This document shows, piece after piece, positions 33,324 to 51,862 of a DNA stretch of 64,000 nucleotides. The translations under genes were made by a program, and so were the position numbers. Numbering within the stretch: the stretch's first letter is position 1; each line of letters begins with the position of its first letter. Source of the DNA: Rhodospirillales bacterium URHD0017 (GTDB lineage Bacteria; Pseudomonadota; Alphaproteobacteria; Reyranellales; Reyranellaceae); assembly GCA_900110395.1 (NCBI GenBank), contig FODP01000005.1:306705-370704 (forward strand). The letters are read 5' to 3'. The notes under the pieces are model-generated. The model did not search any database. It was given only the letters and a program-made list of their open reading frames with translations, and was not told the DNA's origin.

Positions 33324-33338
33324 CGATGCCTCCCCGCC

Positions 33339-34316
33339 TCACCCGACCTGCAGCACGATCCGTCCTTGCGAACTGCGGTTCGCGACGGCGCTCATCGCGT
33401 CGGCGACGCGATCGAGGGGAAGCACCCGGTCGACATGCGGGCGCAGCTTGCCTTCGCCGACCCACGTCATGAGGGTCTCGGCCGCACGACTGGCGTCGTC
33501 CGGACAGCGTTGTGTCCAGGCAGCGATGAAGACCCCGACGATCGAATAGTTCTTGAGCAGGGGCAGGTTCATGGCGAGCGACGGAATCTCGCCGCTGGTG
33601 AATCCGATCGGCATCAGCCGGCCGTTGAAACGCATGAGCCGGGCAAGGGCGGTGAAGAGCGCGCCGCCGACATTGTCGACGCAGACGTCGAGGCCTTCGC
33701 CGCCGGTGAGCGCCTTCACGCGCTCGCGTACATCTTCGCGCGAATGATCGATGACCTCGGCGGCGCCGTGCCGGCGCACGATGGCCGCCTTTGCGTCGCC
33801 GCCGACGACGGCAATGACACGCCCGCCAAGCAGATGCGCAAGCTCGACGCAGGCCAGCCCGATCCCGCCGGCGGCACCCGTCACGAGGACGGTTTCGCCG
33901 GCTTGCAGCCGTGCCCGCTCGACCAGGGCATACCAGGCCGTGAGATAGCTGTTCAGGACCGTCGATCCGACGCAGAAATCCACGTTGGCCGGAAGACTGA
34001 CGGTCATCGCCTCCCGGGCGACCATGCGTTCGGCAAAACCGCCGAACCAGTTCTCGCAACTGACCCGATCGCCGGGATGGAAGCGCGTGACGCGCTCGCC
34101 GCAAGCGACCACGATGCCGGCGGCGTCGGTTCCCGGGACGTAAGGGAGAACCGGTCGCATCTGATAGCGGCCGGTGGTCATCAGGTAGTCCATGTAGCTC
34201 ACGGACGCGGCACGGACGTCGACCAGAACTTCATCCGCCGCCGGCTGCGGATCGGCGGCTTCGCCCAGGCTCAAGGCTTCGATGCCGTCGAAGGCCTTGC
34301 AGAGAACAGCGCGCAC
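33339..34316 (-). CDS. Zinc-less MDR-type NADPH:quinone oxidoreductase
   Basis: Protein of 325 aa of the medium-chain dehydrogenase/reductase family. Landmarks: VLPYVPGTDAAGIVVACGERVTRFHPGDRV (about residues 57-86) and the NADPH loop VLVTGAAGGIGLACVELAHLLGGRVIAVVGGDAK. The zinc ligands of alcohol dehydrogenases are missing, as in quinone oxidoreductases. The GTG at 34316 is chosen because GAGGAGGG lies just upstream. A longer frame reaches 34496 but crosses a tandem repeat and the end of the previous gene. It belongs to the run 35163-30508. Confidence 0.88.
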   Translation of the reverse strand: MRAVLCKAFDGIEALSLGEAADPQPAADEVLVDVRAASVSYMDYLMTTGRYQMRPVLPYVPGTDAAGIVVACGERVTRFHPGDRVSCENWFGGFAERMVAREAMTVSLPANVDFCVGSTVLNSYLTAWYALVERARLQAGETVLVTGAAGGIGLACVELAHLLGGRVIAVVGGDAKAAIVRRHGAAEVIDHSREDVRERVKALTGGEGLDVCVDNVGGALFTALARLMRFNGRLMPIGFTSGEIPSLAMNLPLLKNYSIVGVFIAAWTQRCPDDASRAAETLMTWVGEGKLRPHVDRVLPLDRVADAMSAVANRSSQGRIVLQVG

Positions 34317-34337
34317 TTCACCCTCCTCGATCCGTTT

Positions 34338-34388
34338 CGGACATTGTTTCGGACATTGTTTCGGACATTGTTTCGGACACTGTTTCGG
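34338..34388. repeat. 12-bp tandem repeat in an mRNA leader
   Basis: CGGACATTGTTT occurs three times in a row from 34338, then once as CGGACACTGTTT, then CGG. The array fills most of the 82-nt gap between the MddA-like gene and the quinone oxidoreductase, ending about 20 nt above the latter's start. The copies are nearly identical, which suggests recent slippage expansion. Confidence 0.9.
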
Positions 34389-34398
34389 CCATGGGCAT

Positions 34399-35163
34399 TC
34401 ATTCCGCGCCCGGGCGGGCAGCCGGCCGCAGGCGGCCGCCGCGAAGGCGCGGCACCAGCATCGGGACACGTCGGCGATAGTGCTCGTAGGACGCACCGAA
34501 CTGTCCCACCAGGTCCTGTTCCTCGAGCCGGACGCCGACGAGGATGTATCCCGTCATCATGACCGCGAAGAGCAGGTGTCCCGCGGTCATGTGCGGCGTC
34601 GCCCAGAAGGCGAGCAGGAAACCCAGCATGAGCGGATGACGCACGAGTCCGTACAGCAGGGGCGTCTTGAACGGGGTGACGCGAGCCGCGGCGCCGCGCA
34701 GCGCATCGAATACCTGGCGCACGCCGAACAGCTCGAAGTGATCGATCAGGTACGTCGAGGCGAGCGCTATCAGCCAGCCGATCCAGGAAATCGCGATCAG
34801 GATCGCGGCCGGCAGGCCCTCGACGCGCCAGATCGTCGTCGTGATCGGCCGCCATTGCCAGAGGATGAGGATCAGCAGGAGGCTCGAGACCAGCACGTAG
34901 GTGCTGCGCTCGCACGACGCCGGAATGACGGTCGTCCACCAGCGCTTGAAGGCCGGACGCGCCATGATGCTGTGCTGGCAGGCGAACGCCACGAGCAGCG
35001 CCACGTCGATCAGGATCGACGGCAAAAGCCCGCTCTCGACTCCGACGTCGATCGACTTCGGCACCCAATAGTTGCCGATGAAAGCCACCGTGTAGACGAA
35101 CGAAACGAAGAAGACGAGGTAGCTCGCAACGCCATAGATCAGGGCAGCAACGCGTCCGATCAC
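34399..35163 (-). CDS. mddA: Methanethiol S-methyltransferase (MddA) homologue, membrane protein
   Basis: Integral membrane protein of 254 aa. MddA methylates methanethiol with SAM to give dimethyl sulfide. Strongly conserved segments are ALIYGVASYLVFFVSFVYTVAFIGNYWVPKSID, FACQHSIMARPAFKRWWT, ERSTYVLVSSLLLILILWQWRP, STYLIDHFELFGVRQV, YGLVRHPLMLGFLLAFWATPHMTAGHLLFA and RLEEQDLVGQFG..Y..YRRRVPMLVP. This is the MddA branch of the isoprenylcysteine methyltransferase-like superfamily. GTG at 35163 has GGAGG 5 nt upstream; ATG at 35214 or a start at 35265 would add a non-conserved N-terminus. It heads a five-gene minus-strand run. Confidence 0.8.
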   Translation of the reverse strand: MIGRVAALIYGVASYLVFFVSFVYTVAFIGNYWVPKSIDVGVESGLLPSILIDVALLVAFACQHSIMARPAFKRWWTTVIPASCERSTYVLVSSLLLILILWQWRPITTTIWRVEGLPAAILIAISWIGWLIALASTYLIDHFELFGVRQVFDALRGAAARVTPFKTPLLYGLVRHPLMLGFLLAFWATPHMTAGHLLFAVMMTGYILVGVRLEEQDLVGQFGASYEHYRRRVPMLVPRLRGGRLRPAARPGAE

Positions 35164-35321
35164 GAAGTCCTCCAACGGGTACGAATGACGATCCTGTGGC
35201 GCCGGTGCTACCATTGCGGCGTCCCCTCGCCGTCCTCCCGGATGCGCCGGAAGAGGTTCTTGCAAGTGGCGAGGCGTGCGATCATGAGGTCCGTGGCTGG
35301 TAGCATCGCCCTGTCCCTTGA

Positions 35322-36908
35322 ATGTCCCCGGACGCCATCCATGGCGCGCGCATCCCGATGACCGTGTTCAGCCTGCGGACGCTTGGATTCCCGGAGATCC
35401 GTCGCGACGACCGGCCGTGCCCGTTGGCCTTGCGCAAGGGCCTCGCCCTGCTGATCCATCTGGCCGAAGCCGGGGGCCCGGTCGGGCGCGACGCGATCGC
35501 CACCCTGTTGTGGCCGGAAAGCTCCGAAGATGTCGTGCGGGCACGGCTGCGGCGCCTGCTGCATCGCCTTCAGGGCGTGCTCGGCGATGACGTTCTCGCG
35601 ATCGACCGCTCGACGGTTCGATGGTCGCCGGCCATCGACCTGCAGGTGGATTCCCGACTGTTCGAGCAGGCTTGCGACCGCGGCGAGTTCGAGCGCGCCT
35701 GCCGTCTTTATGTCGGCGACTTTCTCGCGGGTTTCTCGCCGGGCGACTGCCCGCAGTTCGATGAATGGGCCTTCTTCCGCCGCGAGGCCTTGCGGGGCCG
35801 GGCAATCCAGGCGCTCGAGCGCATGGTGCACGACAAGAATGCGGCCGGCGACCATGCGACTGCAGCGGCGTATGCCGTCAGGCTGGTCGAGCTCGATCCG
35901 CTCAGCGAGGTGTATGGCCGGCACCTCATCCGCAATCTCGTGCTCGCCGGAGACCGGGCTGGTGCCGAGCGCCACCTTGGCGCCCTGACGCAACGTCTTC
36001 GCGACGAGCTCGACGTGGCACCCGAAGCAGAGACGCTGGCGCTGCTCGGTGCCGGCGCAACGCCCGCGGCCGAGGAGCCACCGCCTACGCGCTACGTCAG
36101 CGGCGGCGGCGTCCATCTCGCGTTCCAGACCTATGGCGCCGGCCCGGTCGACATTCTGATGCTGCCCGGCTTCGTGTCCCACGTCGAACGTGTCTGGGAA
36201 GAGCCGCGGTGCCGGACGTTCCTGTCGTCCCTCGCCGGGATGGGCCGCCTCATCCTGCTCGATCGCCGCGGCGTCGGGCTTTCCGACCGGGTCGGGTTCG
36301 TCCCCAGCGTCGAAGCGACTGCCGAGGACATCGGTACCGTGCTCGATGCCGCTCGCAGCCGCCGGGTCGTGCTGTTCGGCGCATCCGAGGGCGGACCGGC
36401 CTGCATCAGATTTGCCGCGGACTTTCCCGATCGTGTCGCCGGCCTGATCCTGTTCGCCTCACTGGCGAAGGGAAGCGCGGCGCCCGACTATCCGCACACG
36501 CTGAAGGCTGGTCAGTACGACATGTGGCTTCGCCAGCTCGTCGAGGTCTGGGGCGGGCCTGCCGGCATCGAGACGTTCGCGCCCAGCCTGTCGGGCGATC
36601 CTCGGGCGAGGGCGTGGTGGGCCGGCTTGCTGCGGGCGGCGTCGAGCCCGGGAGCCATAAAAGGCGTGCTCGAGGCGTTGCGTGACACCGATGTCCGGCA
36701 TCTTCTGGAACGGATTTCCGTTCCGACCCTGGTGCTGCACCGTCGCGGAGACAGCGCGGTTCGCATCGGCGCCGGCCGGCATCTCGCCAGCCACATCGCC
36801 CAGGCACGCTTCGTCGAGCTCGACGGCGCCGATCACTGGGCCTTCGCGGGCGATCAGCAGCCCGTCCTGGCCAGCATCAGGCAGTTCGTCGGCAGCCTTG
36901 CGGCGTGA
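35322..36908 (+). CDS. Fusion of a BTAD (SARP-type) regulator domain with an alpha/beta hydrolase
   Basis: Protein of 528 aa. Residues 14-95 look like a compact winged-helix start (VFSLRTLGFPEIRRDDRPCPLALRKGLALLIHLAEAGGPVGRDAIATLLWPESSEDVVRARLRRLLHRLQ). Residues 100-240 form the bacterial transcriptional activator domain (FEQACDRGEFERACRLYVGDFLAGF ... DEWAFFRREALRGRAIQALERM ... ELDPLSEVYGRHLIRNLVLAGDRAGAERHL). Residues 255-528 are an alpha/beta hydrolase with nucleophile GASEGG, acid in HRRGDSAV and His in GADHWAF. In relatives, a cyclase domain often takes the hydrolase's place. It is divergent from mddA across about 160 bp. The hydrolase part may sense a small ligand (inference). Confidence 0.85.
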   Translation: MSPDAIHGARIPMTVFSLRTLGFPEIRRDDRPCPLALRKGLALLIHLAEAGGPVGRDAIATLLWPESSEDVVRARLRRLLHRLQGVLGDDVLAIDRSTVRWSPAIDLQVDSRLFEQACDRGEFERACRLYVGDFLAGFSPGDCPQFDEWAFFRREALRGRAIQALERMVHDKNAAGDHATAAAYAVRLVELDPLSEVYGRHLIRNLVLAGDRAGAERHLGALTQRLRDELDVAPEAETLALLGAGATPAAEEPPPTRYVSGGGVHLAFQTYGAGPVDILMLPGFVSHVERVWEEPRCRTFLSSLAGMGRLILLDRRGVGLSDRVGFVPSVEATAEDIGTVLDAARSRRVVLFGASEGGPACIRFAADFPDRVAGLILFASLAKGSAAPDYPHTLKAGQYDMWLRQLVEVWGGPAGIETFAPSLSGDPRARAWWAGLLRAASSPGAIKGVLEALRDTDVRHLLERISVPTLVLHRRGDSAVRIGAGRHLASHIAQARFVELDGADHWAFAGDQQPVLASIRQFVGSLAA

Positions 36909-36926
36909 AAGCGGCTACCGGCTTGA

Positions 36927-36986
36927 GCCAGCGAGTCGGCGGGTGCGCGGGCGAAGCGTGCGCCGGCGAAGCCGCGGCTCGCTGGC
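36927..36986. terminator. Inverted repeat downstream of the BTAD-hydrolase gene
   Basis: GCCAGCGAG (36927-36935) pairs with CTCGCTGGC (36978-36986), with more GC-rich complementarity between. It begins 18 nt after the stop codon. No T-run follows, so the terminator call is tentative. From 36987 to 37126 I see no gene. Confidence 0.4.
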
Positions 36987-37126
36987 GCCTATGACGTTTG
37001 GAATGGCGATAGCAAGTCGAGCATCACCAGCTTCTCAATCGTCACCACGGACGCCGCGTTCAGCACCGTGCGCTGTCACGACCGGATCATCCATGAGGAG
37101 CGCCCGTTCGCATCACCAGCCTTCCT

Positions 37127-37279
37127 TCAGCGCTTCTCGGTCGGGCCCATGAATATCGAGCCCTTGCCATACTGGGCCTCGAGCATTTCCTTGGCCTTGA
37201 AGTAATTGTCTGCCTGGACCGTGACTTCTTGGACACCGGACTTGAGTTTGATCTTCGCCTTGAACGTTCTTGTAGCCAT
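37127..37279 (-). CDS. Small protein of unknown function, 50 aa
   Basis: The predicted product MATRTFKAKIKLKSGVQEVT.. has 50 residues, is basic, and alternates hydrophobic residues as in a small beta-sheet followed by a helix (NYFKAKEMLEAQYGKG). The ATG at 37279 is well supported by GGAGGG 4 nt upstream; an in-frame start at 37363 lacks this. It stands alone in a gene-poor stretch next to a DUF2779 relic. I do not recognise the family with certainty; the pattern resembles small proteins found near mobile DNA. Confidence 0.6.
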   Translation of the reverse strand: MATRTFKAKIKLKSGVQEVTVQADNYFKAKEMLEAQYGKGSIFMGPTEKR

Positions 37280-37526
37280 TGTCCCTCCGATGGCGTCGCC
37301 GCAGCGCGCACCAACATGACGATACTGGTACTCACTCAGCGCAGCATTGACCGTCGCCGACAATCGATTGACGTTGGCCGCCTAGCGGCTTAGTCAAGCT
37401 CTCTCTCCTAAGGATGGCCCAGATCCGAAAGGGCGAGCCGCTTGCGAACGCTGCTGATTGATCCTCCAGAGCCTCGGAACCACTACGCGGACTGTGTCGA
37501 AGGTGTCAGGCCGCTTGGGGCATAGT

Positions 37527-37760
37527 CTAGAGTTTGAAGTCGGATCGGCCGGCGAACTTCTGCCAGATGCGCATCGTTGCGTGGGTGTCCAGCTTGCAAT
37601 ACTCGAGAAGTTGCCTCTCGATCTCCTGCCTACGGGCAGGGGAGGTGTCCTTGTGAATGGCTTCAAGGAAGGCAGCCATGGCCATACCTCCGTCCCGAAC
37701 ACCCTCCAACAACCGGGATCTGACGGCCATCGAAGCCGCCCGCCAGTCGATGGGCCTCAT
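37527..37760 (-). pseudogene. C-terminal remnant of a DUF2779-type protein
   Basis: The 77-residue frame ends VRDGGMAMAAFLEAIHKDTSPARRQEIERQLLEYCKLDTHATMRIWQKFAGR. This closely follows the end of DUF2779 proteins (DGGMA-x-AAFLEA ... LLxYCKLDTxAMVRI), whose full length is several hundred residues. The sequence upstream (37761-37870) does not continue the family in any frame I checked. What remains therefore looks like a relic of a larger gene deleted here. No SD is seen for the frame. Confidence 0.6.
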
Positions 37761-37873
37761 GCCGGACTGGGTGCGGCGCCTGGTGGCGCTTCGAAACTTT
37801 CTCGGACACTTCGTTGGGCTTAAGGATTGGCTGCACGTTTCTAAGACCGGAGAGTTAGCTAGAAATCCAGGGA

Positions 37874-39121
37874 TTACACTGTGTCCGTTGCCTCCACGCT
37901 GGCCACCTTGAACAGCGTCCGGCTGCCGTCGTAGGCGACATTGCGGAAGATGAGGGTGTGGGCCTCACTGCGCCTGACCTTGACGACGACATGCTGCAGG
38001 TCGGGCATGGCTGCGAGCACACGCTCCGGAGCGCAGAAGCGTGACAGATCCGCGCCACAGACGACAATGCCAAGAGCGCCAGCGATGACCTCGACGCCAA
38101 TAGCGATGGCAATCGTGTCGTTGCTGTCGCCGGGTTCCAGAGACATTGCGAGTGCATAGCCCCATCTGTCGGGACCCGTCTCGATCGGAACGCCGGCGAC
38201 ATCGCCGAACTGGAGGCCATGCGCGTGAGCTGGCGCGCGTGTCAACGCGCGGGTCGAGGAAACAAGCTTGCGCCACAGGCCGGAAGGGCCATCCGTCGCC
38301 GCCGGCCTGAGGGCAGCATCATTGAGAAGCTCGACCTTCTGGATAGGCGACTCCCGCCTGGCGCCATCCTCGAGCCTTTCGTCGAGCCGGGCTGGCAGCG
38401 GGAACAACAACTCCATGCTTGTGGAGCCGCCTGGATCTGCCAAGCCGCCGTCTTTCCGTTGCAGGATGAAGTTGTCGTAGCCATCCAGCACGAGCGCCTT
38501 GCGATAGCCGAGCCGCGACAACCAGGCGAGGGTTTCGGTGCCACTCTGCTGGCGCTTGGCCAGGGCATGGTTGAGCTCGATGACGACGACCGGGTCGTGC
38601 TTCAGCAGCGTCTGCTCCGCACCCCGCAGCACATCGAAATCGAAGCTGTCGACGTCGATCTTGAGGCAGTCGACGCGCTCGATGCCGTTCTCCGCAATGA
38701 AGTCGTCCAGCCGGTAGAAGGGATAGTCCTTCACCTCGCCTTCGGTGCCCCACAGCCGGAAGATGCGTTCATGCTGCTGTCCCGTCTTGGCCCCGAGAGC
38801 GACCTCGTGCACGGCCGCGTTTTGCACATTGTTGTGCAGGAGATTGCGGCGCAGCATGTCCGCTGTCGTGGTCGGCTCGAAAGCAAAAACGCGGCCCCGA
38901 GAAGCGAGCTGCGAAAACAGGATCGTGTAATAGCCTATGTTTGCGCCGATATCGAAGATCCACCAGTCCGGCCGCACATGCTCTACGAACCAGCCCTTCG
39001 TCTCCATCTCGCATTGGGGATAGTAGTCGCGAAACTCCTCATAGAAGGCGACCAATTCTATGCTCTTGCGTCCGGGGACTGCGGTCTCGACGCGATCAGA
39101 CATGCGGGGTTGCAAGGACAT
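37874..39121 (-). CDS. FkbM family SAM-dependent methyltransferase with extra C-terminal domain
   Basis: Protein of 415 aa. Residues 45-245 are the FkbM methyltransferase: WWIFDIGANIGYYTILFSQLASRGRVFAFEPTTTADMLRRNLLHNN (SAM site), then DYPFYRLDDFIAENGIERVDCLKIDVDSFDFDVLRGAEQTLLKHDPVVVIELN. FkbM enzymes O-methylate sugars of polyketides and surface glycans. The remaining 165 residues, after a proline-poor linker, are an additional beta-rich region I cannot assign. ATG at 39121 is used; a TTG lies two codons earlier. It sits at one end of a surface-type cluster. Confidence 0.88.
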   Translation of the reverse strand: MSLQPRMSDRVETAVPGRKSIELVAFYEEFRDYYPQCEMETKGWFVEHVRPDWWIFDIGANIGYYTILFSQLASRGRVFAFEPTTTADMLRRNLLHNNVQNAAVHEVALGAKTGQQHERIFRLWGTEGEVKDYPFYRLDDFIAENGIERVDCLKIDVDSFDFDVLRGAEQTLLKHDPVVVIELNHALAKRQQSGTETLAWLSRLGYRKALVLDGYDNFILQRKDGGLADPGGSTSMELLFPLPARLDERLEDGARRESPIQKVELLNDAALRPAATDGPSGLWRKLVSSTRALTRAPAHAHGLQFGDVAGVPIETGPDRWGYALAMSLEPGDSNDTIAIAIGVEVIAGALGIVVCGADLSRFCAPERVLAAMPDLQHVVVKVRRSEAHTLIFRNVAYDGSRTLFKVASVEATDTV

Positions 39122-39304
39122 CCTCAACTCGCCTCGCCAAAGGTTGCACCGTTACAGAACGAGGAGAATTAGCAGCTGCTAGGCAAAGGCCTGGGACAGT
39201 CCATAGCACATATCCCTGGCGACAGAAGACGTTTTGCCCCAGTCGATACTTGCGTAACTCATCGCTCCAGTGCTGGTACAGTGACCTATGAAGGAACCCG
39301 CGAG

Positions 39305-40372
39305 ATGAACTCCGATTACAAGCTTGTCACCTCGCCGCGGTCCAAGAAGCAAGCCTGGAAGTATTGGGGTTCCGTGGTCGCCGTGAACCTTGGCGCGGCC
39401 GTCGTCGCCGCCCTCTGCTTTGGCGTTTGGCAGCGATTCCATTTGCCACAAGCCACGGCCAGTGTTCCCGGCAAAGGTGGAGCCTTCTACGAACTGGCCG
39501 ACGATGTCGGATATATCCCGAGGGCCAACGCCCGGATGACGCGTGCGGCGGTGGAAGAGCGCCGGACGAACGATGATGTCGTCTACACCACGGGGGCTGA
39601 CCATTTCCGAGTTGTGCCGGGGACGGCCGAGGAGGCCGATGCCTGCGTCCTCCTGTTCGGCGATTCGTTCACCTTCGGCGTTGGCGTGAACGACGAAGAA
39701 ACCTTCGCCGCTCAGATCGTGAAGGAGAGTGGGCGCCGCGTGGCCGCCCAGAATTTCGCCGTGTCGGGTTGGGGGCCGCATCAGTTTCTGGCCGGACTGC
39801 AATCCGGCCGCTTTCAGCGAGCCGTCCGGTGCCGGCCAACGGATGCCGTATTCCTCATGATTCCCTCGCTGATCTGGCGCGCAAGCGGCGTGACGAATGC
39901 ATGGGACACGACCGGGCCGCGCTACCGGCTGGGCGTGGCGGGACGGCCGGTCCGGGACGGCACCTTTGGCGATCCGGATCCCTACAACTGGCGGCGATGG
40001 ATTGGCCTGGATCCGGTCAGCAAAAGCGAGGCATCGTCGCTTGCAGCAGCCGTGGTCGTGGAGGCCATGAGTGAGCTCAAGCGGCTCTATCCGGGCATCC
40101 GAACGCACTTCATTTCATACCGCGTCGGCCCATGGAGCGACAGCAACTTCAGTGCGGAGGAGCTGGCGGCATTTGAATACAACCTTGGACAGAAGGGCAT
40201 CACGGCGCTTCCGCTGGAAGCAATCATCCCTCGGTACCGCTTCGCACAGCTTGACTATGTCCTGGACCCAACCGACCTTCACCCCAACGCACGGGCACAT
40301 CATCTCATTGCCGAATTCTTCCTTCGAGAAATCAAGCCGGACCAGCAAGAGACAAAGGGACATAGCAAGTAA
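39305..40372 (+). CDS. Membrane-anchored SGNH/GDSL hydrolase-like protein
   Basis: Protein of 355 aa. A single membrane helix lies near residues 20-42 (WGSVVAVNLGAAVVAALCFGVW), so the catalytic part faces the periplasm. The GDS block is intact: VLLFGDSFTFGVGVNDEETFAAQI (catalytic Ser). The C-terminal block is DPTDLHPNARAHHLIAEFF (Asp-x-x-His is DLH preceded by T). Proteins of this plan often add or remove acetyl groups on glycans. The ATG at 39305 has AAGGAA upstream. Its stop TAA overlaps the next start (TAATG), so it is coupled to the TPR gene. Confidence 0.78.
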   Translation: MNSDYKLVTSPRSKKQAWKYWGSVVAVNLGAAVVAALCFGVWQRFHLPQATASVPGKGGAFYELADDVGYIPRANARMTRAAVEERRTNDDVVYTTGADHFRVVPGTAEEADACVLLFGDSFTFGVGVNDEETFAAQIVKESGRRVAAQNFAVSGWGPHQFLAGLQSGRFQRAVRCRPTDAVFLMIPSLIWRASGVTNAWDTTGPRYRLGVAGRPVRDGTFGDPDPYNWRRWIGLDPVSKSEASSLAAAVVVEAMSELKRLYPGIRTHFISYRVGPWSDSNFSAEELAAFEYNLGQKGITALPLEAIIPRYRFAQLDYVLDPTDLHPNARAHHLIAEFFLREIKPDQQETKGHSK

Positions 40373-41598
40373 TGCCGCCCTCTCAACACGGTGAGACCGC
40401 CCGCTCCAGCTCCCTCAAGAGAACCGTACGCCAACTTGCCGACGTCGCCTCCTCGGCCCCGGCCCTCGCGTCGTCCTTCGACCACATGCACAGGATCTGG
40501 CGCCGGGCCATCGATCGACTCGGCGTCTTCCACGGGCCGCAGACCTTCGGGAAACTGGGCCCGGAGGCGCTCTACCTGCGTGCCAGGGTGCAGGCCCTCG
40601 CCGGCAACCTCAAAGCGGCGGAGCGCCAGTTCGCCGAAGTCGCGTCGCTGGCGCCGACGTTCACCCCCGCCCTGGAAGGGCATGGCGAGGTGCTCGACAT
40701 GCTGGGCGAGAGCGAACGCGCCCGATCCAGGTACGACAGCGCGCGGAAGTTGCGGTCACAAGTCAGGAGCGGGGCGCCGGACCGTTGCGCCGTCCTGCGC
40801 AATCGCGGCCCCTTCACGTCCGATATCATCGCGTACACGGCGATGCTGCGGATGGGTCGAGCGAAGCGGCGAGCGCTGACCTATATAACGCGCGGCAACG
40901 CTTACCTGGCCTCGGGGTACCCCAAACTCGCCCTGCTCGACTATGGCTTCGCGCTCCGCCTGCGCCCGGACCTTCACGAAGTCACCGCGCTCAAGGGCGA
41001 AGCGCAGGCCATGTTGGGGCGCTACCCATCGGCGCTCCGCGCCTTCGATGTCGCGCTTGCGGCCCGTCCCATGGATGCCGAGATTTACAGTGGCCGAGCC
41101 GTCGTGCACATGGTGCTCGGCAGGCTCGACGCCGCCGACGCCGACTGGCGCCGGCAACTCGCGCTGTTGCCGCCGGACCGGTCGTCGGCGCGCGCCTGCG
41201 TGTTGTTGCGACTGGCGGACTATGAAGCGGCACTAACCGAGCTGAAAGGGGCTCTCGAAAAAGAGCCTGCCGATCCCTACTGGCAACTCTATCGCTTGAC
41301 GTCGCTCCACCGCCTCGGTCGGCCGGTCGACCGTCCCGGCTTCGATGACGCGACTGCCAATGACTGGCCCCGCGCCTTGCTAGCCTTGCATGCCGGACGA
41401 CTGTCGGCGCAGGATGCGCTGAAGCGGGCGGACAATGAGGGCCGGCGCGCCGAGGCACTGTTCCAGCTGGGCATCGTCACCTGCCGGCACGACCGCGCGG
41501 AGGCCTGCCGCTACTGGCAGCAAGTCGTCGACAAGGCGCCTCCGACCTTGATCGAGCACGCGGCGGCGCGCCATGAACTGGCCCGTCCCCGCTCCTAG
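40372..41598 (+). CDS. TPR-repeat protein
   Basis: Protein of 408 aa, mostly helical, with tetratricopeptide-like repeats: ALYLRARVQALAGNLKAAERQFAEVASLAPTFTPALEGHGEVLDMLGESERARSRYDSA, then RGNAYLASGYPKLALLDYGFALRLRPDLHEVTALKGEAQAMLGRYPSALRAFDVALAARPMDAEIYSGRAVVHMVLGRLDAADADWRRQLAL and at least one more pair. No signal peptide or membrane helix is seen. TPR proteins act as scaffolds, often in polysaccharide assembly. The start codon overlaps the stop of the SGNH gene, so the two are made together. Confidence 0.85.
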   Translation: MPPSQHGETARSSSLKRTVRQLADVASSAPALASSFDHMHRIWRRAIDRLGVFHGPQTFGKLGPEALYLRARVQALAGNLKAAERQFAEVASLAPTFTPALEGHGEVLDMLGESERARSRYDSARKLRSQVRSGAPDRCAVLRNRGPFTSDIIAYTAMLRMGRAKRRALTYITRGNAYLASGYPKLALLDYGFALRLRPDLHEVTALKGEAQAMLGRYPSALRAFDVALAARPMDAEIYSGRAVVHMVLGRLDAADADWRRQLALLPPDRSSARACVLLRLADYEAALTELKGALEKEPADPYWQLYRLTSLHRLGRPVDRPGFDDATANDWPRALLALHAGRLSAQDALKRADNEGRRAEALFQLGIVTCRHDRAEACRYWQQVVDKAPPTLIEHAAARHELARPRS

Positions 41599-41608
41599 CC
41601 GCGTCGCG

Positions 41609-41866
41609 CTATAAACTGGCGCTCAGCAATTTATAGCCAAGCAATATGGCGGAGAGGGCCCAAAGCACCAGTGACTGGTGATAGAACAGATTTGTCGTCA
41701 ATCGATACTGCATGAAGCGCATTCCCAATTCCGCATCCAGAAGGAAGTCGGCATCGGGATCCATCTCGAAGTCGGGGAAATCACGGGCAATAACGAAGTT
41801 TCCGATCGTCGCCAACATTGAGCACAGGAAAGCGAATACCGCCGTCGTCAGTATTGCGCCGATCAT
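41609..41866 (-). CDS. Small two-helix membrane protein, 85 aa
   Basis: The product has two hydrophobic segments (residues 3-26, ILTTAVFAFLCSMLATIGNFVIA, and 62-82, QSLVLWALSAILLGYKLL). They are joined by an acidic stretch rich in Asp (PDFEMDPDADFLLDAELG). I do not recognise the family. The ATG at 41866 is supported by AAGGGGA upstream; a GTG start about 20 codons earlier is possible. It is 77 nt after the SGNH gene at 41944 on the same strand and convergent with the TPR gene. Confidence 0.55.
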   Translation of the reverse strand: MIGAILTTAVFAFLCSMLATIGNFVIARDFPDFEMDPDADFLLDAELGMRFMQYRLTTNLFYHQSLVLWALSAILLGYKLLSASL

Positions 41867-41943
41867 GTCGATCCAGCTCCCCTTGATAGGCAGATGAAGA
41901 TGAAAAGTGGGCTGCGAAGCCACAACTCTGGCACGTGTGCCCC

Positions 41944-43236
41944 CTATTGGTCCCCTGGTCGTTTGCCGGCGACCAGTCTTGCCCGAGCAGCGAGCAATTC
42001 GTTCGACACGCGCTCGGCAACGATCCGAGTACCGAGGTCGGTCCAGTGTCCGTCGGTCACGCGATAAGTGCCGCGAACACCATTGAGGGTCTCGCGTAGA
42101 TCGATGAGCGGCATGCCCCGCTGACGAAGCGCTGTCGCCAGTCGCCTGTGCCGCGAGTCGCTGCTCATCGAGTACGAGAAATAATTCGGCCACGGCCGCC
42201 AGAATTCGACATAGCTGGGATCGACGACGCCGACGGGTACCAAGGCGACGATCATTTGCGCGCCGTGGGCCTGTGCGACCTGTTCGGCGCCGACCAGCCA
42301 GCTGAGCGTCTCGTCGACCCGTGAATCGCCCACCATGCGATCGGCTTCTTCGGCGCTGCGCGGGATTTCCCACTGGGCGGTTTCCCATTCGATGATGGTC
42401 GAAAGCAGCCAACCCGCCAGATATGCGCGATCAGGCCCGCGCTTCGCGGCCGCCGCCGCGAGCCCGTTGCCGCCGCGTGACAGGATCTCGCGTATCGTGT
42501 CCTCAGCGAGCCCTGGATAGTAGTAGGTCTTTATATGGCGGACGATGCGGTCGAACCGTTCGGCAGACGGCTGCTCTGCCCATTCGTTGAGCATCGCGAA
42601 TTCGCCGGCGATGTCCTTGTTGGCGTGAGCGATCTCGAGGCTGCCAAGCCTGTTCGCCAACAGCCAGGTTGTGCGGGGAGCAACGGTTCCGAGGATCGAC
42701 GGCACGGGCAGTTCGTCGATCAGCGGCGGGATGGCGAGGGTCTCAAGCCTGGTCGCAATGAAGTCATTGCCGGCATACACGAAGACCACGATGACATCCG
42801 GGTCGAGCCGAACGGCCACGTTCTTGATGCGGTAGTAGTAGTGGCGTGGACTCGTCGCATTGATGCCGAGATTGATCGCCTCCATGCCGGTTCGGCCCTC
42901 GTCGGCCCATCGCCGCTCGATCAGCTCGGAGAGCGGCGGCACGTGGTAGCTGCCTTCGAGGAAGCTGTCGCCGACGAGGACGGACCTGAACCGAATATCC
43001 GACGGACGCTCGATCGACCTTGGCCGATCCCTGACGGCCCAGTCGTTGTAGTGGAGCTCGAGCCCGTCGGCGAACGCCTTCGCAGCATTGACCTGCATGG
43101 CCTCGATCGGTATCGGCCGGAGATCCCGGGCGGGCCAGGACGGCGCGGAAAAGGACGCGATGAACTCCGCACCCGCCAGCGTGACGCCCAACAGCACAAG
43201 AAAATAGACAGGCCACAGCCAGGGTCTCCTGCTCAT
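41944..43236 (-). CDS. Membrane-anchored SGNH hydrolase-like protein
   Basis: Protein of 430 aa. Membrane anchor at residues 6-28 (WLWPVYFLVLLGVTLAGAEFI). The SGNH blocks are VLVGDSFLEGS (GDS with catalytic Ser), a Gly block INLGINATSP, VVFVYAGNDFIATRL (Asn block GND) and VTDGHWTDLGTRIVAE (Asp-x-His). All four catalytic elements are present, so it is more likely to be active than the two proteins at 26.3 and 28.8 kb. Its start overlaps the stop of the glycosyltransferase gene at 43233 by 4 nt. A role in acylating or deacylating the glycan made by that enzyme is a reasonable inference. Confidence 0.8.
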   Translation of the reverse strand: MSRRPWLWPVYFLVLLGVTLAGAEFIASFSAPSWPARDLRPIPIEAMQVNAAKAFADGLELHYNDWAVRDRPRSIERPSDIRFRSVLVGDSFLEGSYHVPPLSELIERRWADEGRTGMEAINLGINATSPRHYYYRIKNVAVRLDPDVIVVFVYAGNDFIATRLETLAIPPLIDELPVPSILGTVAPRTTWLLANRLGSLEIAHANKDIAGEFAMLNEWAEQPSAERFDRIVRHIKTYYYPGLAEDTIREILSRGGNGLAAAAAKRGPDRAYLAGWLLSTIIEWETAQWEIPRSAEEADRMVGDSRVDETLSWLVGAEQVAQAHGAQMIVALVPVGVVDPSYVEFWRPWPNYFSYSMSSDSRHRRLATALRQRGMPLIDLRETLNGVRGTYRVTDGHWTDLGTRIVAERVSNELLAARARLVAGKRPGDQ

Positions 43237-44864
43237 GCTCTCCTCGGAAGCGGCGCCATACGGAGCTGTGCGGAGTACCGGGCAACCGGCCTGTAACGGT
43301 CGAGAACGCGCACGATCTTGCCCTTCATCGACATGGCGGTGCGCGGATTGCCAGCCAACACCTGGCTGCAGAAGGGGTTGAGGTTCGCCCCGATGTAGTC
43401 GGTGAACAGACGCCAGTACCAGTTGTGGATCACGTTGACCCCGATGAAGCGGCGCGGCGCGCTTTGGCTCTCGGGTCGCGTTTCCGCCTCGAGAGAGGCG
43501 GCGTGGCGGAACAGCCTCTCAACCACCTCGAGGCGCTCCTTGTCGAGAGGCGTTGCCAGCCGTCCGATTCGCAGGGGCTCGTCGCTGCGCTGCGTGACCA
43601 GACCGAACTCGAATATGAACATCTCGGCGCGCCGCAGCAGGTCGTGGAACGGGCCGGTTTCGACGCCGGGCAGATCGGTCGGCAGGCCGGCGCATTCCTG
43701 AGGCACCAGGATCGGGCCGGTGAAGCCCATGCTCCGCCACGCCGTCGAGAAACGCGTGAGCAATTCCGCGCGCGTCCCGATGAACATGAGTGCCGTGTGC
43801 TTCGGATAGGTCAGCACCTGATCGCAAACGAACGGCAGAGTGTGCGGCACGTCATAGGTGAGGTCGTCGAGATGACACCAGTCGAGGCTGGTCGTCTCGT
43901 AGGGAGCTTGTGCCGGTTCGATGGCGGCGCCGACACCGGCAAAGAACCGTTCAAAGGACGTGTCACAGTCGAGCCGGATCTCCTCGATGTCGAGATCGGG
44001 CCAACCCCAGCTGTTGGCCTGAGCCGGCAGATAGGGTGTCGCGACGTCCCAGACAAAACGGTTGAGGTCATTCTGCTTGGTCTGCCGGCCCTTGTTGTTG
44101 GCGGCAGCGACGCGGGTATGGTCGCAGTGGTAGGCGAAGACCTTGTCGATCAGCGTGTCGACCGTGCCGCGATAGAGCGCAAGGCGCGCCGCGAGGTTGG
44201 AATCGCAATGCCAGCCCAGCAGCATCTCCTCGTCGAAGCCGTGGATGGCGAACATGTCGTCGCGCAACGCAGCCTGGAAGTCGCCCAGCGCGTCGTAGCG
44301 CATGGGCATGGAATTGTGGACGACCTGATTGAGCCGGAAGCGCACCGCCCAGTCGCGCAGCTTTGCCAGATTGCCGACTGGATCGCGGCGATCAAAGGCT
44401 GCTTCCCACAGCATCTCCGGCAACTCGAAGCGGGGCGTCTCGTAGAAGCCGTCGGGCAGCGCGCCCATGATGTCGCTGAGCGACTCGTCTTCGTTGCGCG
44501 GCACCAGCAGCATGTCGCTGTTGGTGTAGAGGATCCAGCGATTGCGCGGGTTGGAACGCCTGAGGGCGACGTTGCGCGACTGCGCCTCCAGGGCAACCAG
44601 GTGGGTGCGCGCGCCAAGGTGGGAATGTTGCTGGGGGCGGACGCGGAAGATGCGAATGACCTTCTTCGCCTTGTCGGTCAGCGTATCGGCGATGGCCTCC
44701 AGGAAGGTCGGATGGTCGTCGGATGTGTTGTAGTCGACGAACAGGATTTCGTCGTCGGGATCGGACATCACCTCGGCGAGGGCGTTGAAGCTGATGGCCG
44801 CGCGCTTGTGCAGATTGTAACCGTGGCTGTCGTTGCGGCCGTACGTAATGACGGAAATCATCAT
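43233..44864 (-). CDS. Glycosyltransferase-like protein, GT-A fold
   Basis: Protein of 543 aa. The N-terminal half resembles family 2 glycosyltransferases: MMISVITYGRNDSHGYNLHKRAAISFNALAEVM, DDEILFVDYNTSDDHPTFLEAI, and RWILYTNSDMLLVPRNEDESL, where NSDM takes the DxD position that binds metal and nucleotide sugar. A further acidic region DDMFAIHGFDEEMLLGWHCDSNLAARL fits the acceptor-side motif. The C-terminal 200 residues are unassigned and include CxxD..PHTLPFVCDQVLTYPKHTALMFIGTR. The protein is soluble by sequence. It overlaps the SGNH gene by 4 nt. Confidence 0.75.
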   Translation of the reverse strand: MMISVITYGRNDSHGYNLHKRAAISFNALAEVMSDPDDEILFVDYNTSDDHPTFLEAIADTLTDKAKKVIRIFRVRPQQHSHLGARTHLVALEAQSRNVALRRSNPRNRWILYTNSDMLLVPRNEDESLSDIMGALPDGFYETPRFELPEMLWEAAFDRRDPVGNLAKLRDWAVRFRLNQVVHNSMPMRYDALGDFQAALRDDMFAIHGFDEEMLLGWHCDSNLAARLALYRGTVDTLIDKVFAYHCDHTRVAAANNKGRQTKQNDLNRFVWDVATPYLPAQANSWGWPDLDIEEIRLDCDTSFERFFAGVGAAIEPAQAPYETTSLDWCHLDDLTYDVPHTLPFVCDQVLTYPKHTALMFIGTRAELLTRFSTAWRSMGFTGPILVPQECAGLPTDLPGVETGPFHDLLRRAEMFIFEFGLVTQRSDEPLRIGRLATPLDKERLEVVERLFRHAASLEAETRPESQSAPRRFIGVNVIHNWYWRLFTDYIGANLNPFCSQVLAGNPRTAMSMKGKIVRVLDRYRPVARYSAQLRMAPLPRRA

Positions 44865-44957
44865 GTCCTCGCGCGGCCGATCAACACACGAACGTACGCC
44901 GCCGGCTGAAGACTACCAATCGCGCGGCGCCATGTCTGCGGCATGGAGCACTCGAGA

Positions 44958-45950
44958 TCAAGAGCGCTCACCAAAGCCGAAATTCGAGCGCCATGTCCGC
45001 GGCTTCGGCTCGTCGAGCAGGCCAAGCGCCCCGCGCATCTGCGTTTCGGCCTTTTCGTAACGCTCCTCGCCGAAGGCCAGGAGAAACGCTTCGGCCCTGT
45101 CCTTGAGAACCTTATGGACCAGCTCGAGGACGGAGTTGGCGATCGGCCCCCAGGGTTGCGATGCCGAATTGTAGCGCCCGCCCAGGACGGTCGCATTCGA
45201 GTGCTTGTTCAGGCCATGCATGCGGTAGGCATAAAGCGCTTCATGGATGCCCATGGCTCCGGTGAGCAGAAGCGCGAACGTCGACAGATAGAAGTCGAGA
45301 TAGAGCCTGAGATCCTCATCCGGAGGGACGAGCACGAGATCGACGAAGCTTCGTCGGAACATCATGCTTGCCGTGGAATTCGTGCTGCTTGCGCTCGTCC
45401 ACTCGGCCCGCAACGTCACGCCGGTGTTGACCGGGTATGTCAGGGCACTTGTCGCCGGATCGAATGCCGGTATGTGAGCCGGATCAATCGGTCGCGCCGG
45501 GGGTGGATGCGGATCCGAATCGAACCACCACGCGGTCCCTGCCAGGAGGCGGTCGTCGCCGTCGATGATATGTGAATCGCAATAGGTCAGCGCGACTGGA
45601 AAGTCGGAGTTCATGTGCACCGACAGGTGCCGCGCCAGGAAGGGTTCGTACCAGACATCGTCGGAATCGAGAAAGCACACGAACGGCGTCTCAAGCTTCG
45701 CCAGGCCGCGGCGAACCGCTCCGCCCTGGCCTAGATTGTTCTCGAGCCTGACGTAGTCGAAGCGGGAATCATTCAAGCCTGCAAGGCAGCCGCGGATCGC
45801 CTCATCGGATCGGTCGGTCGATGCGTCGTCGACGACAATGGCGCGAAAGTCCCGGGCCGTCTGTCGCGCGACCGACTCGATGGCTTTGGCGACGAAAGCT
45901 CCGTTGTTGTAGTTGGCGATTACGACTCCGACGGTGGGAGCGAGGGGCAT
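44958..45950 (-). CDS. Glycosyltransferase family 2 protein
   Basis: Protein of 330 aa with a clear GT-A domain: PTVGVVIANYNNGAFVAKAIESVARQTARDFRAIVVDDASTDRSDEAI, NLGQGGAVRRGLAKLETPFVCFLDSDDVWYEPFLARHL (DxD motif SDD). The later region has the usual acceptor-binding stretch with YAYRMHGLNKHSN. It transfers a sugar from a nucleotide donor to a surface glycan or lipid intermediate. The ATG at 45950 begins just before the first strand; an in-frame GTG at 46010 lacks a well-placed SD. It is the first gene of the minus-strand cluster after the tRNA. Confidence 0.9.
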   Translation of the reverse strand: MPLAPTVGVVIANYNNGAFVAKAIESVARQTARDFRAIVVDDASTDRSDEAIRGCLAGLNDSRFDYVRLENNLGQGGAVRRGLAKLETPFVCFLDSDDVWYEPFLARHLSVHMNSDFPVALTYCDSHIIDGDDRLLAGTAWWFDSDPHPPPARPIDPAHIPAFDPATSALTYPVNTGVTLRAEWTSASSTNSTASMMFRRSFVDLVLVPPDEDLRLYLDFYLSTFALLLTGAMGIHEALYAYRMHGLNKHSNATVLGGRYNSASQPWGPIANSVLELVHKVLKDRAEAFLLAFGEERYEKAETQMRGALGLLDEPKPRTWRSNFGFGERS

Positions 45951-46149
45951 TGCCGAGAAAGCCTTTCGATCTGACGTCCAATCCCTAAACAAACGCGAGG
46001 CTGCAACCACTCCTTCTTCCGCATAGCTCGTCCGTCACATGGGCCAACCGCTTCAGTCGGCCCTCCTCCGCCAAGGCTTCGGAGGGCATTCTGCTTCGCG
46101 CGTCATTGTGGCAAGGCCTGTTCTGCGTAGCGCACAGCGCGAAGCAGAA

Positions 46150-46226
46150 TGGCGTCCCCGAGAGGATTCGAACCTCCGACCTCCGGTTTAGGAAACCGCT
46201 GCTCTATCCAGCTGAGCTACGGGGAC
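46150..46226 (-). tRNA. tRNA-Arg, anticodon CCT
   Basis: The minus strand reads GTCCCCG (acceptor, 46226-46220), TAGCTCAGC..., an anticodon loop TTCCTAA with anticodon CCT, the T-arm GGTTCGAATCC, CGGGGAC and then G plus an encoded CCA (46152-46150). The cloverleaf is complete and 77 nt long with CCA. It decodes AGG. Its 3' end faces the glycosyltransferase cluster. Confidence 0.95.
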
Positions 46227-47379: not shown

Positions 47380-48585
47380 TCACGCCCGCTTGTCGGAAAC
47401 GACCACGCCTTCCTTCAGCACGAGCTTGAGCTGTCGCACGTTCTGGATGTCCTCCAGCGGATTGCCGCCGACCACGATCAGATCGGCCAGCTTGCCGACC
47501 TCGATCGTGCCAAGGTCGTTGCCCACGCCGCAGACCGCTGCGCCATTTCGGGTCGCTGCGACCAGCGCCTGCCACGGTGTGGCGCCATCGCGGACCCACA
47601 GTCCCAGTTCGAGCAGCGCGGCGTCCTTGAGCGGCCGGATGTCCGAGCCCAATGCCATCTTGACGCCGGCCTTGAGCGCCCTGGCGAACCCGTCCCGATG
47701 GACGTCCGCTGCCGCGTCTGCGCGGCAGCACAACGCATGCGCCATGTTGCGCTGCCTGACCCAGCGCTGCTCCCAATCGTTGTTCGCCTGCTCTGGCGTG
47801 AGGTGGCTGATCGCCAGCGTCGGCACGTACCAGGTGTCGTGCTTCAGGAACAGCTCGATGCATTCGTCATCGAGGATGTAACCGTGCTCCACGCTGTGTG
47901 CCCCCAGCCGGATGGCGTTCTTCACCGCTTCCGGGTTGGTCGCATGGGCCATCACCTTGAACTCGCGCAGGTGACAGATCTCGAAGGCTGCCTTCAGCTC
48001 GTCCTGCAGCAGGAAGGAGTGCCGGTGGAGGTCCCAGGCCGGCCCCAGGATGCCACCCGACAGGTTCAGCTTGATGTGGTCGACGCCATTCTTGATCTGC
48101 TCGCGGATCGCCTTGACGAAGCCGTAAGGTCCGTCGCATTCGAGCGCATGCCCGGAGGTCAGGAAGTGGCCGCCGGTCGTCGTCAGGAAGTGGCCGGAGG
48201 CGAACAGGCGCGGTCCGACATACTGGCCCGAGTCGAAGGCGCGCTTCCAGGCGACATCCATGTAGTGGTGCGCGCCGGCGCAGCGCAGTCCGGTGATGCC
48301 GGACTCGGTAAGGGCCGCCATCAGTCGATGGCCGAACAGCGTGACCTGGTCGGCGAGCGGCATCTCGGTCGGAAGGTAGTAGTCCGGATGAATGTGGACG
48401 TCCCACAGTCCGGGCATCAGCCAGGCGCCGCGGAGGTCGATCAGGGTGGCGCCACCTGCCGCGGGCACGCTGCCGTCGATGCGGATCTCGCGAATGCGTC
48501 CGTTCTCGATCAGGACCGCCGCGCCCTCGACTGCCGTGGGCTGGACGCAGTCGATCAGCGTGGCGTTCGTGAGGAGCGTTCGCAC
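47380..48585 (-). CDS. Metal-dependent amidohydrolase, prolidase/imidazolonepropionase-like
   Basis: Protein of 401 aa of the amidohydrolase superfamily. The H-x-H metal site is DVHIHPDYY, after a beta-sandwich start LLTNATLIDCVQPTAVEGAAVLIENGRI. A lysine in HIKLNLSGG is the likely carboxylated metal bridge, the next histidines are in VMAHATN and SVEHGY, and the final Asp is in MALGSDIRPL. It is soluble and cytosolic. Substrates in this branch include Xaa-Pro dipeptides and cyclic amides. The GTG start lies 6 nt after the stop of the 64-aa gene. Confidence 0.9.
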   Translation of the reverse strand: MRTLLTNATLIDCVQPTAVEGAAVLIENGRIREIRIDGSVPAAGGATLIDLRGAWLMPGLWDVHIHPDYYLPTEMPLADQVTLFGHRLMAALTESGITGLRCAGAHHYMDVAWKRAFDSGQYVGPRLFASGHFLTTTGGHFLTSGHALECDGPYGFVKAIREQIKNGVDHIKLNLSGGILGPAWDLHRHSFLLQDELKAAFEICHLREFKVMAHATNPEAVKNAIRLGAHSVEHGYILDDECIELFLKHDTWYVPTLAISHLTPEQANNDWEQRWVRQRNMAHALCCRADAAADVHRDGFARALKAGVKMALGSDIRPLKDAALLELGLWVRDGATPWQALVAATRNGAAVCGVGNDLGTIEVGKLADLIVVGGNPLEDIQNVRQLKLVLKEGVVVSDKRA

Positions 48586-48591
48586 AAGCGG

Positions 48592-48786
48592 TTACTCGCG
48601 TTCGTCGTTCGCCAGTGCCACGATCGCCTCCCGGCTCAGCTCCTTCATGCCGGTCTGCAGATCCGTGACGGTGACTCCCTTGGCATCCTTCAGATCATTC
48701 AGTGCGTCCAGGACCTCATCAGCGGTGTTGCAGCCGATGTCGGCTCTGCCCGGGACGTGGATCACGAATCGTGTCTTTGGCGGCAT
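48592..48786 (-). CDS. Small conserved-looking protein, 64 aa
   Basis: The 64-residue product has a beta-strand start (KTRFVIHVPGRADIGC), then a helix (NTADEVLDALNDLKDAKGV), a strand and a final helix (SREAIVALANDERE). It is acidic with one cysteine. I do not recognise it. The ATG at 48786 has AGGAGAG upstream, better than a start 24 nt earlier. It lies between the LLM gene and the amidohydrolase gene (6 nt from the latter) and so looks part of the operon, possibly as an accessory subunit. Confidence 0.6.
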   Translation of the reverse strand: MPPKTRFVIHVPGRADIGCNTADEVLDALNDLKDAKGVTVTDLQTGMKELSREAIVALANDERE

Positions 48787-48859
48787 GTCTCTCTCCTGTG
48801 TCATGGCCACTCTACCCTTGGGTTGGACGGCGCCCTAATCTTACCGAGCTGGTCGAACG

Positions 48860-50033
48860 TCAGCCGAGCTCGGCAAGGCGCGGCAGGACCTCCTTGCTGA
48901 ACATGGTCAGGTTGTCGACCGTGTCGTCGTGAGTGATGTGGCCGCCCTGGCCCATCATCAGGAGGTGGCCGAAGCCGCCGACATGGCCGTGAAACGCCTC
49001 GATCTGCTCGACCACCATGTCGGGCGTGCCGGCGAAGCAAATGCCGGCGTCGATGAACTCCTCGACGCTCGCCCCGTTCGGGTCGACCTGCCGGCCGTTG
49101 CGCAGCTGTGCCGCGCGTGGGCACGCCTGAACCGTAGCCGGGCGACTTCAGCGCCTGCGCCGTCGCGGCGACCGACTGATAGCCGGGCGGAAAGGCGAAC
49201 TGGGCGCCGACGCGGAGCGCCGTGCGGCTGTAGTCGAGAATCTGGTCGGCGCGCCGGAAGCCTTCCTCCCTGGTGGAGCCGACCCCCACGATCGCCATGT
49301 AGGCGAACCGGTCGCGCGGCGCTTCGCGGCCTTGGCTCGCCGCCCCCTTGCGGTAGGCGGCATAGATCCCCGGGGTCCGGACGTAGCCGGTATTGAGGGA
49401 ACCGATGACATAGCCGCGCTCGCCGCCGACCTGCGCGGACTCGGGGCTGTTCACGGTCAGCCAGACCGGAGGGTGCGGCTGCTGGTAAGGGCGCGGCCAG
49501 ACGTTGACCTGGCGGTACTGGAAGTAACGCCCCTCCCAATTGAACGGGCCGTCATGGGTCGTCATCGCCTTCAGGATGAGGTCATGCGCCTCCCAGAAGC
49601 GCGTCATCAGGTCGGCGGGGTTGCTGTTGGCCGGCGTCACTTCGAAGGGCGCACCCTTGACGAAGCCCATCTCGACGCGGCCGCGCGAGATCACGTCCAG
49701 CATCGAATATTCCTCGGCGACGCGCACCGCATCGAAACGGTTGCCGATCGGCATGCCGAGGCACAACAGGCGCGCCTTCTTCGTCTCGCGGGCAAGGATC
49801 GCCATGGGGATCGTGCTGACCGAGTCGATGCAGGTCGCCGTGGCGTGGTGTTCGTTGACCATGATGTTGAGCCCGAGCTCGTCGCACAGGGCCCACTCGT
49901 CGAGACCGCGGTGGTACAGGTCGGCCGCGACTTTGGGCTCACAGAGCCGGCTCGGGACGACGTTGCGCAGCTGGGCGCCGAGTTCCTTCCACGCGGGAAA
50001 ATAGGCGAGCTCGCTGAAATGCCAGACCTTCAT
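48860..50033 (-). pseudogene. LLM class flavin-dependent monooxygenase, frameshifted
   Basis: The intact part (50033 to about 49110) encodes a luciferase-like TIM barrel: AWKELGAQLRN..., MVNEHHATATCIDSVSTIPMAILARETKKARLLCLGMPIGN, VEMGFVKGAPFEVTP, ending KSPGYGSGVPTRGTAA. The family sequence then continues in another frame (from about 49108 to the stop at 48860) as QLRNGRQVDPNGASVEEFIDAGICFAGTPDMVVEQIEAFHGHV...MMGQGGHI...LPRLAELG. One base too many, or two too few, near 49108 separates the two parts. Without the shift the product would be about 390 aa, the family norm. It may be a pseudogene or a sequencing error. No slippery heptamer is present. It lies 7 nt after the hydrolase gene. Confidence 0.88.
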
Positions 50034-50040
50034 CTTGACC

Positions 50041-50808
50041 TCACCTGTGCACGAAGGCGTCGATGGCGCGGATGACAGCTTGGGATTGCTCGATCTCGGG
50101 ATAATGTCCCGCCCCTCGAATGACCGTCAGCTCCGCGGCGGGGAGCGCCGAGGCGAGCGATTGTCCGTAGGACGGCTTGGCAAACCCGTCGGCCTCTCCC
50201 CACAGCACCAGCGTCGGCAGATCGACCCGATGCAGCCAGCGCTTCAGGCCCGGATTGTGCAGGTACGGTCGCCAACCATAGTGGGCGAGCATGTGGCGCT
50301 CGCGCGCGAGCGCCTCGAGCTGGCCGGGGGACAGCGCTGCATAGTTCGGCGCATGGCGCTGCCAGTCGGCGAAGAGCATCGGAAATGCCTCGATGTCGGG
50401 CATGTAGAAGATATCGGCGAAGTCGCGCTCTTCGCGGCCGGAAAACTTCACGCCCACCGACGAGACGAGGATCAGCTTGGCAAGCCGCGCGCGATTGCGC
50501 ACGCACATCTCGAGCGCAATCCATCCACCGAGCGACGCGCCGACGAGAACCACGTTGTCGAGCCTGAGCTCGTCGAGGAGATCGAGATAGAGATAGGCGA
50601 GATCGTCGACCGAACGGAGGTCATTCGCAGCGGACGCCGCACCGTAGCCAGGATGGCGCGGCGCAATCACCCTCCAGTTCCTTGCGAGCGCATTGAGATG
50701 CGGCCTCGCCTGCTCGAAATACTGCTCGGCGTGCAGGTAGAGAAGCGGCGGGCCCGAGCCTGCGATATGGGTCTCGACGGGAAAGCCCTTGATATCGAGT
50801 GTTTCCAT
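50041..50808 (-). CDS. Alpha/beta hydrolase
   Basis: Protein of 255 aa with a normal alpha/beta hydrolase layout: oxyanion region GSGPPLLYLHAEQYFEQ, nucleophile LVGASLGGWIALEMC (G-x-S-x-G), acid in LVLWGEADGFAKP and catalytic His in IRGAGHYPEIEQ. The cap region is RDFADIFYMPDIEAF...HMLAHYGWRPYLHNPGLKRW. It starts the minus-strand operon that continues with the LLM monooxygenase. In such pairs the hydrolase often cleaves the lactone or ester made by the monooxygenase; that link is inference. Confidence 0.88.
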   Translation of the reverse strand: METLDIKGFPVETHIAGSGPPLLYLHAEQYFEQARPHLNALARNWRVIAPRHPGYGAASAANDLRSVDDLAYLYLDLLDELRLDNVVLVGASLGGWIALEMCVRNRARLAKLILVSSVGVKFSGREERDFADIFYMPDIEAFPMLFADWQRHAPNYAALSPGQLEALARERHMLAHYGWRPYLHNPGLKRWLHRVDLPTLVLWGEADGFAKPSYGQSLASALPAAELTVIRGAGHYPEIEQSQAVIRAIDAFVHR

Positions 50809-50973
50809 TGCGACCGTCCTGTGCAGGCCTTTTTATCTGCGCTGGAAAATGCCGCGAGCCAAGGCCTTCAGCGGGGACTCGCGCCCTTGACCCCGCTGGC
50901 CGGAATTGAAGGACCAGATCCGGACATCGTCAGTCGCGACGCACGCCGCTACATTGGCCGGAGGGAGGCGTGA

Positions 50974-51829: not shown

Positions 51830-51862
51830 ACGGGCGGTACGGGCAAGGACAGCCCGACGGGT

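Follow-up and report, generated by a model that had tools for sequence, protein, structure and literature searches.

The closest described relatives of the gene set reported here come from several kinds of system. The Caulobacter flagellin glycosyltransferase FlmG joins a TPR substrate-binding part and a GT-B-like glycosyltransferase in one chain (PMC7591256), while the Klebsiella O antigens involve complexes of glycosyltransferases and methyltransferases, the O4 terminator including a TPR-like bundle (PMC11231755). AlgJ has a DxH motif, is circularly permuted, and has no block III asparagine (PMC4148444), and systems in which an SGNH protein is paired with an MBOAT protein are also known (PMC12148441). 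The locus described in this work was found in a 64,000-nucleotide stretch of DNA, referred to as the window, of the Reyranella-type, 8.18-Mb genome of Rhodospirillales bacterium URHD0017. It probably carries an additional, accessory version of a surface-glycan module of Reyranella; a literature search identified no paper describing this gene set.

Seven ORFs were confirmed at positions 37874-46010 of the window, beside a gene for tRNA-Arg(CCT) (Table 1). All the components listed by the original prediction, which was made from the sequence alone, are present: an FkbM methyltransferase, two anchored SGNH proteins (SGNH1 and SGNH2), a TPR protein, a two-helix protein (TM2), two glycosyltransferases (GTx and GT2), and the tRNA-Arg. 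The genes form two convergent runs, one consisting of SGNH1 and TPR on the plus strand and the other of GT2, GTx, SGNH2, and TM2 on the minus strand, and the FkbM gene is located on the minus strand, separate from both. At 40370 the sequence TAATG combines the SGNH1 stop codon with a possible start of TPR, and the stop codon of GTx likewise overlaps the SGNH2 start (ATGA).

Table 1. Features of the locus, with coordinates in the window.
Feature	Coordinates	Strand	Evidence and remarks
Variable block	32458-46147		Absent from G046, the nearest relative compared
FkbM methyltransferase	37874-39127	-	PF05050, 76 bits (cut-off 22.7); TIGR01444, 92.5 bits, above cut-off
SGNH1	39281-40372	+	PF13472, 29 bits, slightly under the cut-off of 32.9
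TPR protein	40372-41598	+	PF07719, 60 bits; alternative start possible at 40486
TM2	41609-41860	-	83 amino acids, two membrane helices; no family match
SGNH2	41944-43236	-	PF16822 (ALGX), 31.9 bits (cut-off 26.5)
GTx	43233-44864	-	No Pfam or NCBIfam match
GT2-family glycosyltransferase	44958-46010	-	PF00535, 86.5 bits; alternative start possible at 45950
tRNA-Arg (CCT)	46150-46226	-	ARAGORN and Rfam; island boundary at the tRNA 3' end

Five of these genes, TPR, GTx, SGNH2, TM2, and FkbM, recur jointly in Reyranella, in several gene orders and at unrelated sites whose flanking genes vary. GTx is present in 52 of the 65 genomes of the genus, as is TPR, and at all 53 TPR-GTx loci counted, i.e. 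those on contigs that extend far enough to judge, the gene immediately upstream of GTx, in the same orientation, is TPR. The TM2 family comprises 11 loci, nine of them at 3.1 kb or less from a TPR gene of this family. Of the 12 places with close relatives of FkbM, 10 have such a TPR gene at a distance of less than 5 kb; the remaining two belong to genomes where neither GTx nor TPR was detected, and one of them adjoins the conserved surA-pdxA genes. Sets including SGNH2, TM2, and/or FkbM were found in six genomes, G029, G048, G015 (two loci), G030, G044, and G057. The SGNH2 relatives of G029, G030 (contig C72), G057 (C10), G044 (C152), and both G015 loci are all accompanied by TPR and TM2 and, with the exception of the one on the short G029 contig, also by FkbM. 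The order is TPR-GTx-SGNH2-TM2 in G029 and TPR-GTx-TM2-FkbM in G048, where the module directly adjoins a TOTE-type primase/helicase gene (PF22548; L115, G048:C85, 3907-6714). The arrangement in the window can be described as that of the G029 operon with its last three genes, GTx-SGNH2-TM2, inverted. In G015, G030, G044, and G057, TM2-TPR is opposite in strand to SGNH2-(methyltransferase)-FkbM, and these modules do not have a GTx gene of their own, a fact that counts against the explanation that we favor. In a phylogenetic tree the TPR proteins of eight modules form one branch (SH-aLRT 92) apart from the core TPR proteins, i.e. those encoded by the TPR-GTx pair that most genomes of the genus carry and that we call core, with the window protein beside that of G029. 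The window GTx is placed outside the core clade in the GTx tree, with modest support.

The two other genes of the cluster are linked to this set by position only. SGNH1 was rejected as a member of the module, as its relatives have other neighbors at the eight loci whose surroundings were read; in G052 one of them is near two SGNH2 paralogues, with neither TPR nor GTx. GT2 was also rejected: those of its close relatives whose surroundings were read sit elsewhere, and only relatives with 54-56% identity come as close as about 5 kb to TPR-GTx, in a few genomes. Both SGNH1 and GT2 have probably been carried along as passengers or serve in tailoring independently of the module. Their lack of linkage elsewhere, together with the mixed strands and the unrelated genes also carried by the variable block, would be expected if the whole set had been gathered by chance beside the tRNA gene and its products had no joint action, but the co-recurrence of the other five genes at independent sites, with a single TPR branch, has already weakened this explanation, which we consider very improbable. 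The association of five of the seven genes goes beyond chance. Co-occurrence in other genomes was the test that the original prediction had set for itself, and its reading survived the comparison, although its treatment of the neighbors as one set holds for these five genes and not for SGNH1 and GT2, whose relatives mostly occur among unrelated genes.

The locus is a small genomic island or variable site at tRNA-Arg(CCT). In genome G046 the flanks consist of DNA with about 90-92% identity; the homology breaks off where the tRNA gene has its 3' end (46148) and resumes at 32457, and in place of the block in between there are about 2.1 kb of unrelated DNA. The G+C content of the stretch including the module is 62.9%, compared with at least 64.9%, and on average 66.4%, in stretches of the same length from the rest of the window. 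The boundary at the tRNA 3' end, the absence from a near relative, and the odd composition together fit a tRNA-associated island. The genes of the block that were scanned did not include an integrase, and a search allowing up to three mismatches did not detect a second copy of the tRNA end, so that the idea of a tRNA repeat marking the integration site was rejected; both negatives count against the favored explanation. Other features were observed in and around the block. The region 35322-36908 (plus strand) codes for an alpha/beta hydrolase joined to a BTAD transcription-activator domain, and a short tandem repeat coding for CPKQ units is located at about 34300-34400, at the start of an alcohol-dehydrogenase ORF. 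A second variable block (47380-55788), also missing in G046 and with mostly low GC3, is found on the other side of the tRNA gene; it includes genes for an amidohydrolase, a luciferase-like monooxygenase, a hydrolase, an M20 peptidase, and, at 53959-55788 on the minus strand, a protein with a Tle1-like T6SS phospholipase domain (PF09994, 227.6 bits).

The window genome includes two TPR-GTx pairs, the copy in the window and the core pair on contig C36, with identities of 73% for GTx and 40% for TPR. The core pair is located in a surface-polysaccharide region that includes, in this genome, a Wzm/Wzt-type ABC exporter: the flanking genes encode an ABC-2 permease and ATPase as well as a UDP-sugar dehydrogenase and a PfkB/cytidylyltransferase protein. 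An AT3 acyltransferase, methyltransferases, a DegT aminotransferase, and a nucleotidyltransferase are encoded further along C36, and a core relative of SGNH2 is located about 68 kb away on the same contig. None of the genes of the window cluster encodes an exporter component, whereas exporter genes are present at the C36 core pair. Most simply, the product of the core region would be the glycan that the island modifies. The suggestion in the original prediction that the glycan could be made elsewhere agrees with the location of these paralogues, on another contig and next to ABC exporter and nucleotide-sugar genes.

The neighborhood of the core pair also bears on the possibility that the substrate is a protein. 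TPR could recognize a protein such as flagellin and GTx glycosylate it in the cytosol, the two acting as a split version of Caulobacter FlmG, in which case SGNH2 would be unrelated. FlmG demonstrates that TPR-GT pairs can act on proteins, and the absence of membrane segments from both TPR and GTx fits such a role; however, FlmG is a single chain with a GT-B-like glycosyltransferase, GTx is encoded by a separate gene and modeled as GT-A, and the core pair is found among glycan-export and sugar genes. We regard protein glycosylation as unlikely.

Residues 1-250 of GTx were modeled as a GT-A glycosyltransferase, with the chondroitin polymerase K4CP (Z 12.5 over 210 residues) and SpsA (Z 11.4) as the best structural matches and with an invariant aspartate, D117, at the expected metal site; confidence in the model of this N-terminal domain is only moderate. 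When residues 300-510 were folded alone they produced a Rossmann domain with a good mean pLDDT (83.6), the nearest structures being the sugar O-methyltransferases SpnH (Z 9.0) and MycF (Z 8.8), with Z scores close to background. The glycine-rich SAM motif I is absent from this domain in the 31 aligned sequences and the domain was not classified as a methyltransferase; it may therefore not be an enzyme. A PDB sequence search with GTx gave nothing useful, and GTx was not present in the phage collection searched. Distant relatives (about 40-58% identity) were detected in other Alphaproteobacteria and on Azospirillum plasmids; the plasmid proteins, 40-43% identical, are encoded in sugar loci and annotated as hypothetical proteins. 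The relatives found at loci L136 and L137 (genomes G160 and G440) are about 910 amino acids long and have an extra C-terminal part. A second glycosyltransferase family (cluster 8, e.g. L009:1951-3036), about 20-30% identical to the GTx N-terminal domain, is common beside core TPR-GTx pairs.

These properties can be set against a different scheme, in which GTx, FkbM, and TPR would polymerize or cap a glycan and the TPR protein would be a spacer replacing the coiled coil of WbdD. ABC-dependent O-antigen systems use complexes of glycosyltransferases and methyltransferases, and they include the Klebsiella O4 terminator with its TPR-like bundle (PMC11231755), and the core TPR-GTx pair of this genome adjoins an exporter, but the GTx C-terminal domain does not have the SAM glycine motif and an FkbM of the module subfamily is missing from most core loci. 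Control of chain length by these proteins seems to us scarcely probable. A related idea, to which we attach slightly more weight while still judging it improbable, is that TPR-GTx is the first example observed of a novel type of enzyme that polymerizes or terminates glycans: a GT-A domain fused to an inactive methyltransferase-like domain, with a separate TPR solenoid as the spacer, conserved in the genus and exchanged between strains as an island module together with an SGNH/TM2 pair for periplasmic tailoring.

SGNH2 belongs to the SGNH superfamily. It is anchored at its N terminus and includes the conserved blocks in the order S91, G124, N157, and D395-x-H397, the last being part of a DxHW motif (D395-G-H397-W). 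The serine, asparagine, and histidine are present in all homologues that cover them, and the glycine in most. AlgJ was the sole match in a PDB sequence search, at the DxHW motif. SGNH1 is a membrane-anchored GDSL-type protein with a transmembrane-like segment at residues 28-51; it was not assigned to the superfamily, as the block III asparagine is missing in SGNH1 and in its 20 aligned homologues, and a PDB sequence search gave nothing useful. The intact GDS boxes that the original prediction attributed to both proteins hold for the serine, while all four blocks are found only in SGNH2. SGNH2 is not part of an MBOAT-SGNH pair: the sole MBOAT gene of the genome is located on contig C14 beside an SGNH-like neighbor of its own, and was rejected as partner for this reason. 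The window cluster provides neither an MBOAT nor an AT3 partner, which counts against the proposal presented below. The genome includes eleven AT3 acyltransferases, one of them that of the C36 glycan contig, and a distant AT3 protein may be the acyl source for SGNH2. The FkbM protein was identified as an FkbM methyltransferase by its matches to PF05050 and TIGR01444; it has an extra C-terminal domain and is probably cytosolic, and a PDB sequence search with it gave nothing useful.

The joint recurrence of the genes, the presence of GTx-TPR kin in surface-polysaccharide loci, and the absence of the island from a near relative are the basis of our proposal. We think it reasonably likely that the island module alters a glycan whose synthesis is encoded in the core region; GTx, FkbM, and TPR would act in the cytosol and SGNH2 and TM2 on the periplasmic side. 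GTx would add a sugar to the lipid-linked glycan of the core ABC-exporter pathway, with TPR as a scaffold holding it to a partner or substrate, and FkbM would O-methylate the product. Once the glycan has been exported, SGNH2 could add or remove an acyl group on it from its anchored position in the inner membrane, with TM2 as helper or partner; if the reaction is an acylation, the acyl carrier would have to be supplied from outside the cluster. The outcome would be an altered coat in strains carrying the island. The original interpretation of the cluster as a surface-glycan system is thus supported in part; that a glycan is altered, and in which manner, is what we infer. What was a list of genes becomes a defined unit: a TPR-glycosyltransferase pair that is found across the genus and has no name yet, plus its island counterpart, which brings membrane tailoring genes of its own. 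This unit would give access to the variation of surface glycans in Reyranella and Azospirillum.

With respect to known systems, SGNH2 shares with the alginate O-acetyltransferases AlgJ and AlgX the DxHW motif, the match to the ALGX Pfam family, and the membrane/periplasmic type of SGNH protein. However, in the circularly permuted AlgJ the block III asparagine is missing, whereas in SGNH2 the GDS block comes first, the DxH last, and the asparagine is present; in addition, no MBOAT gene adjoins SGNH2. The GTx C-terminal domain has a fold like that of the sugar O-methyltransferases TylF, MycF, and CmcI, but is fused to a GT-A domain and does not include the glycine-rich SAM motif. In the Wzm/Wzt O-polysaccharide loci of Klebsiella O3, O4, O7, and O12, glycosyltransferase and methyltransferase parts are likewise distributed over several proteins beside an exporter; in the window, in contrast, there is no exporter, no WbdD was recognized, and GTx has no match to Pfam or NCBIfam. 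TPR and GTx, as separate genes in a surface-polysaccharide neighborhood, with a GT-A rather than a GT-B domain, do not constitute an FlmG-type protein, but the joint action in the cytosol that we propose for them is like that of the TPR and glycosyltransferase parts of FlmG.
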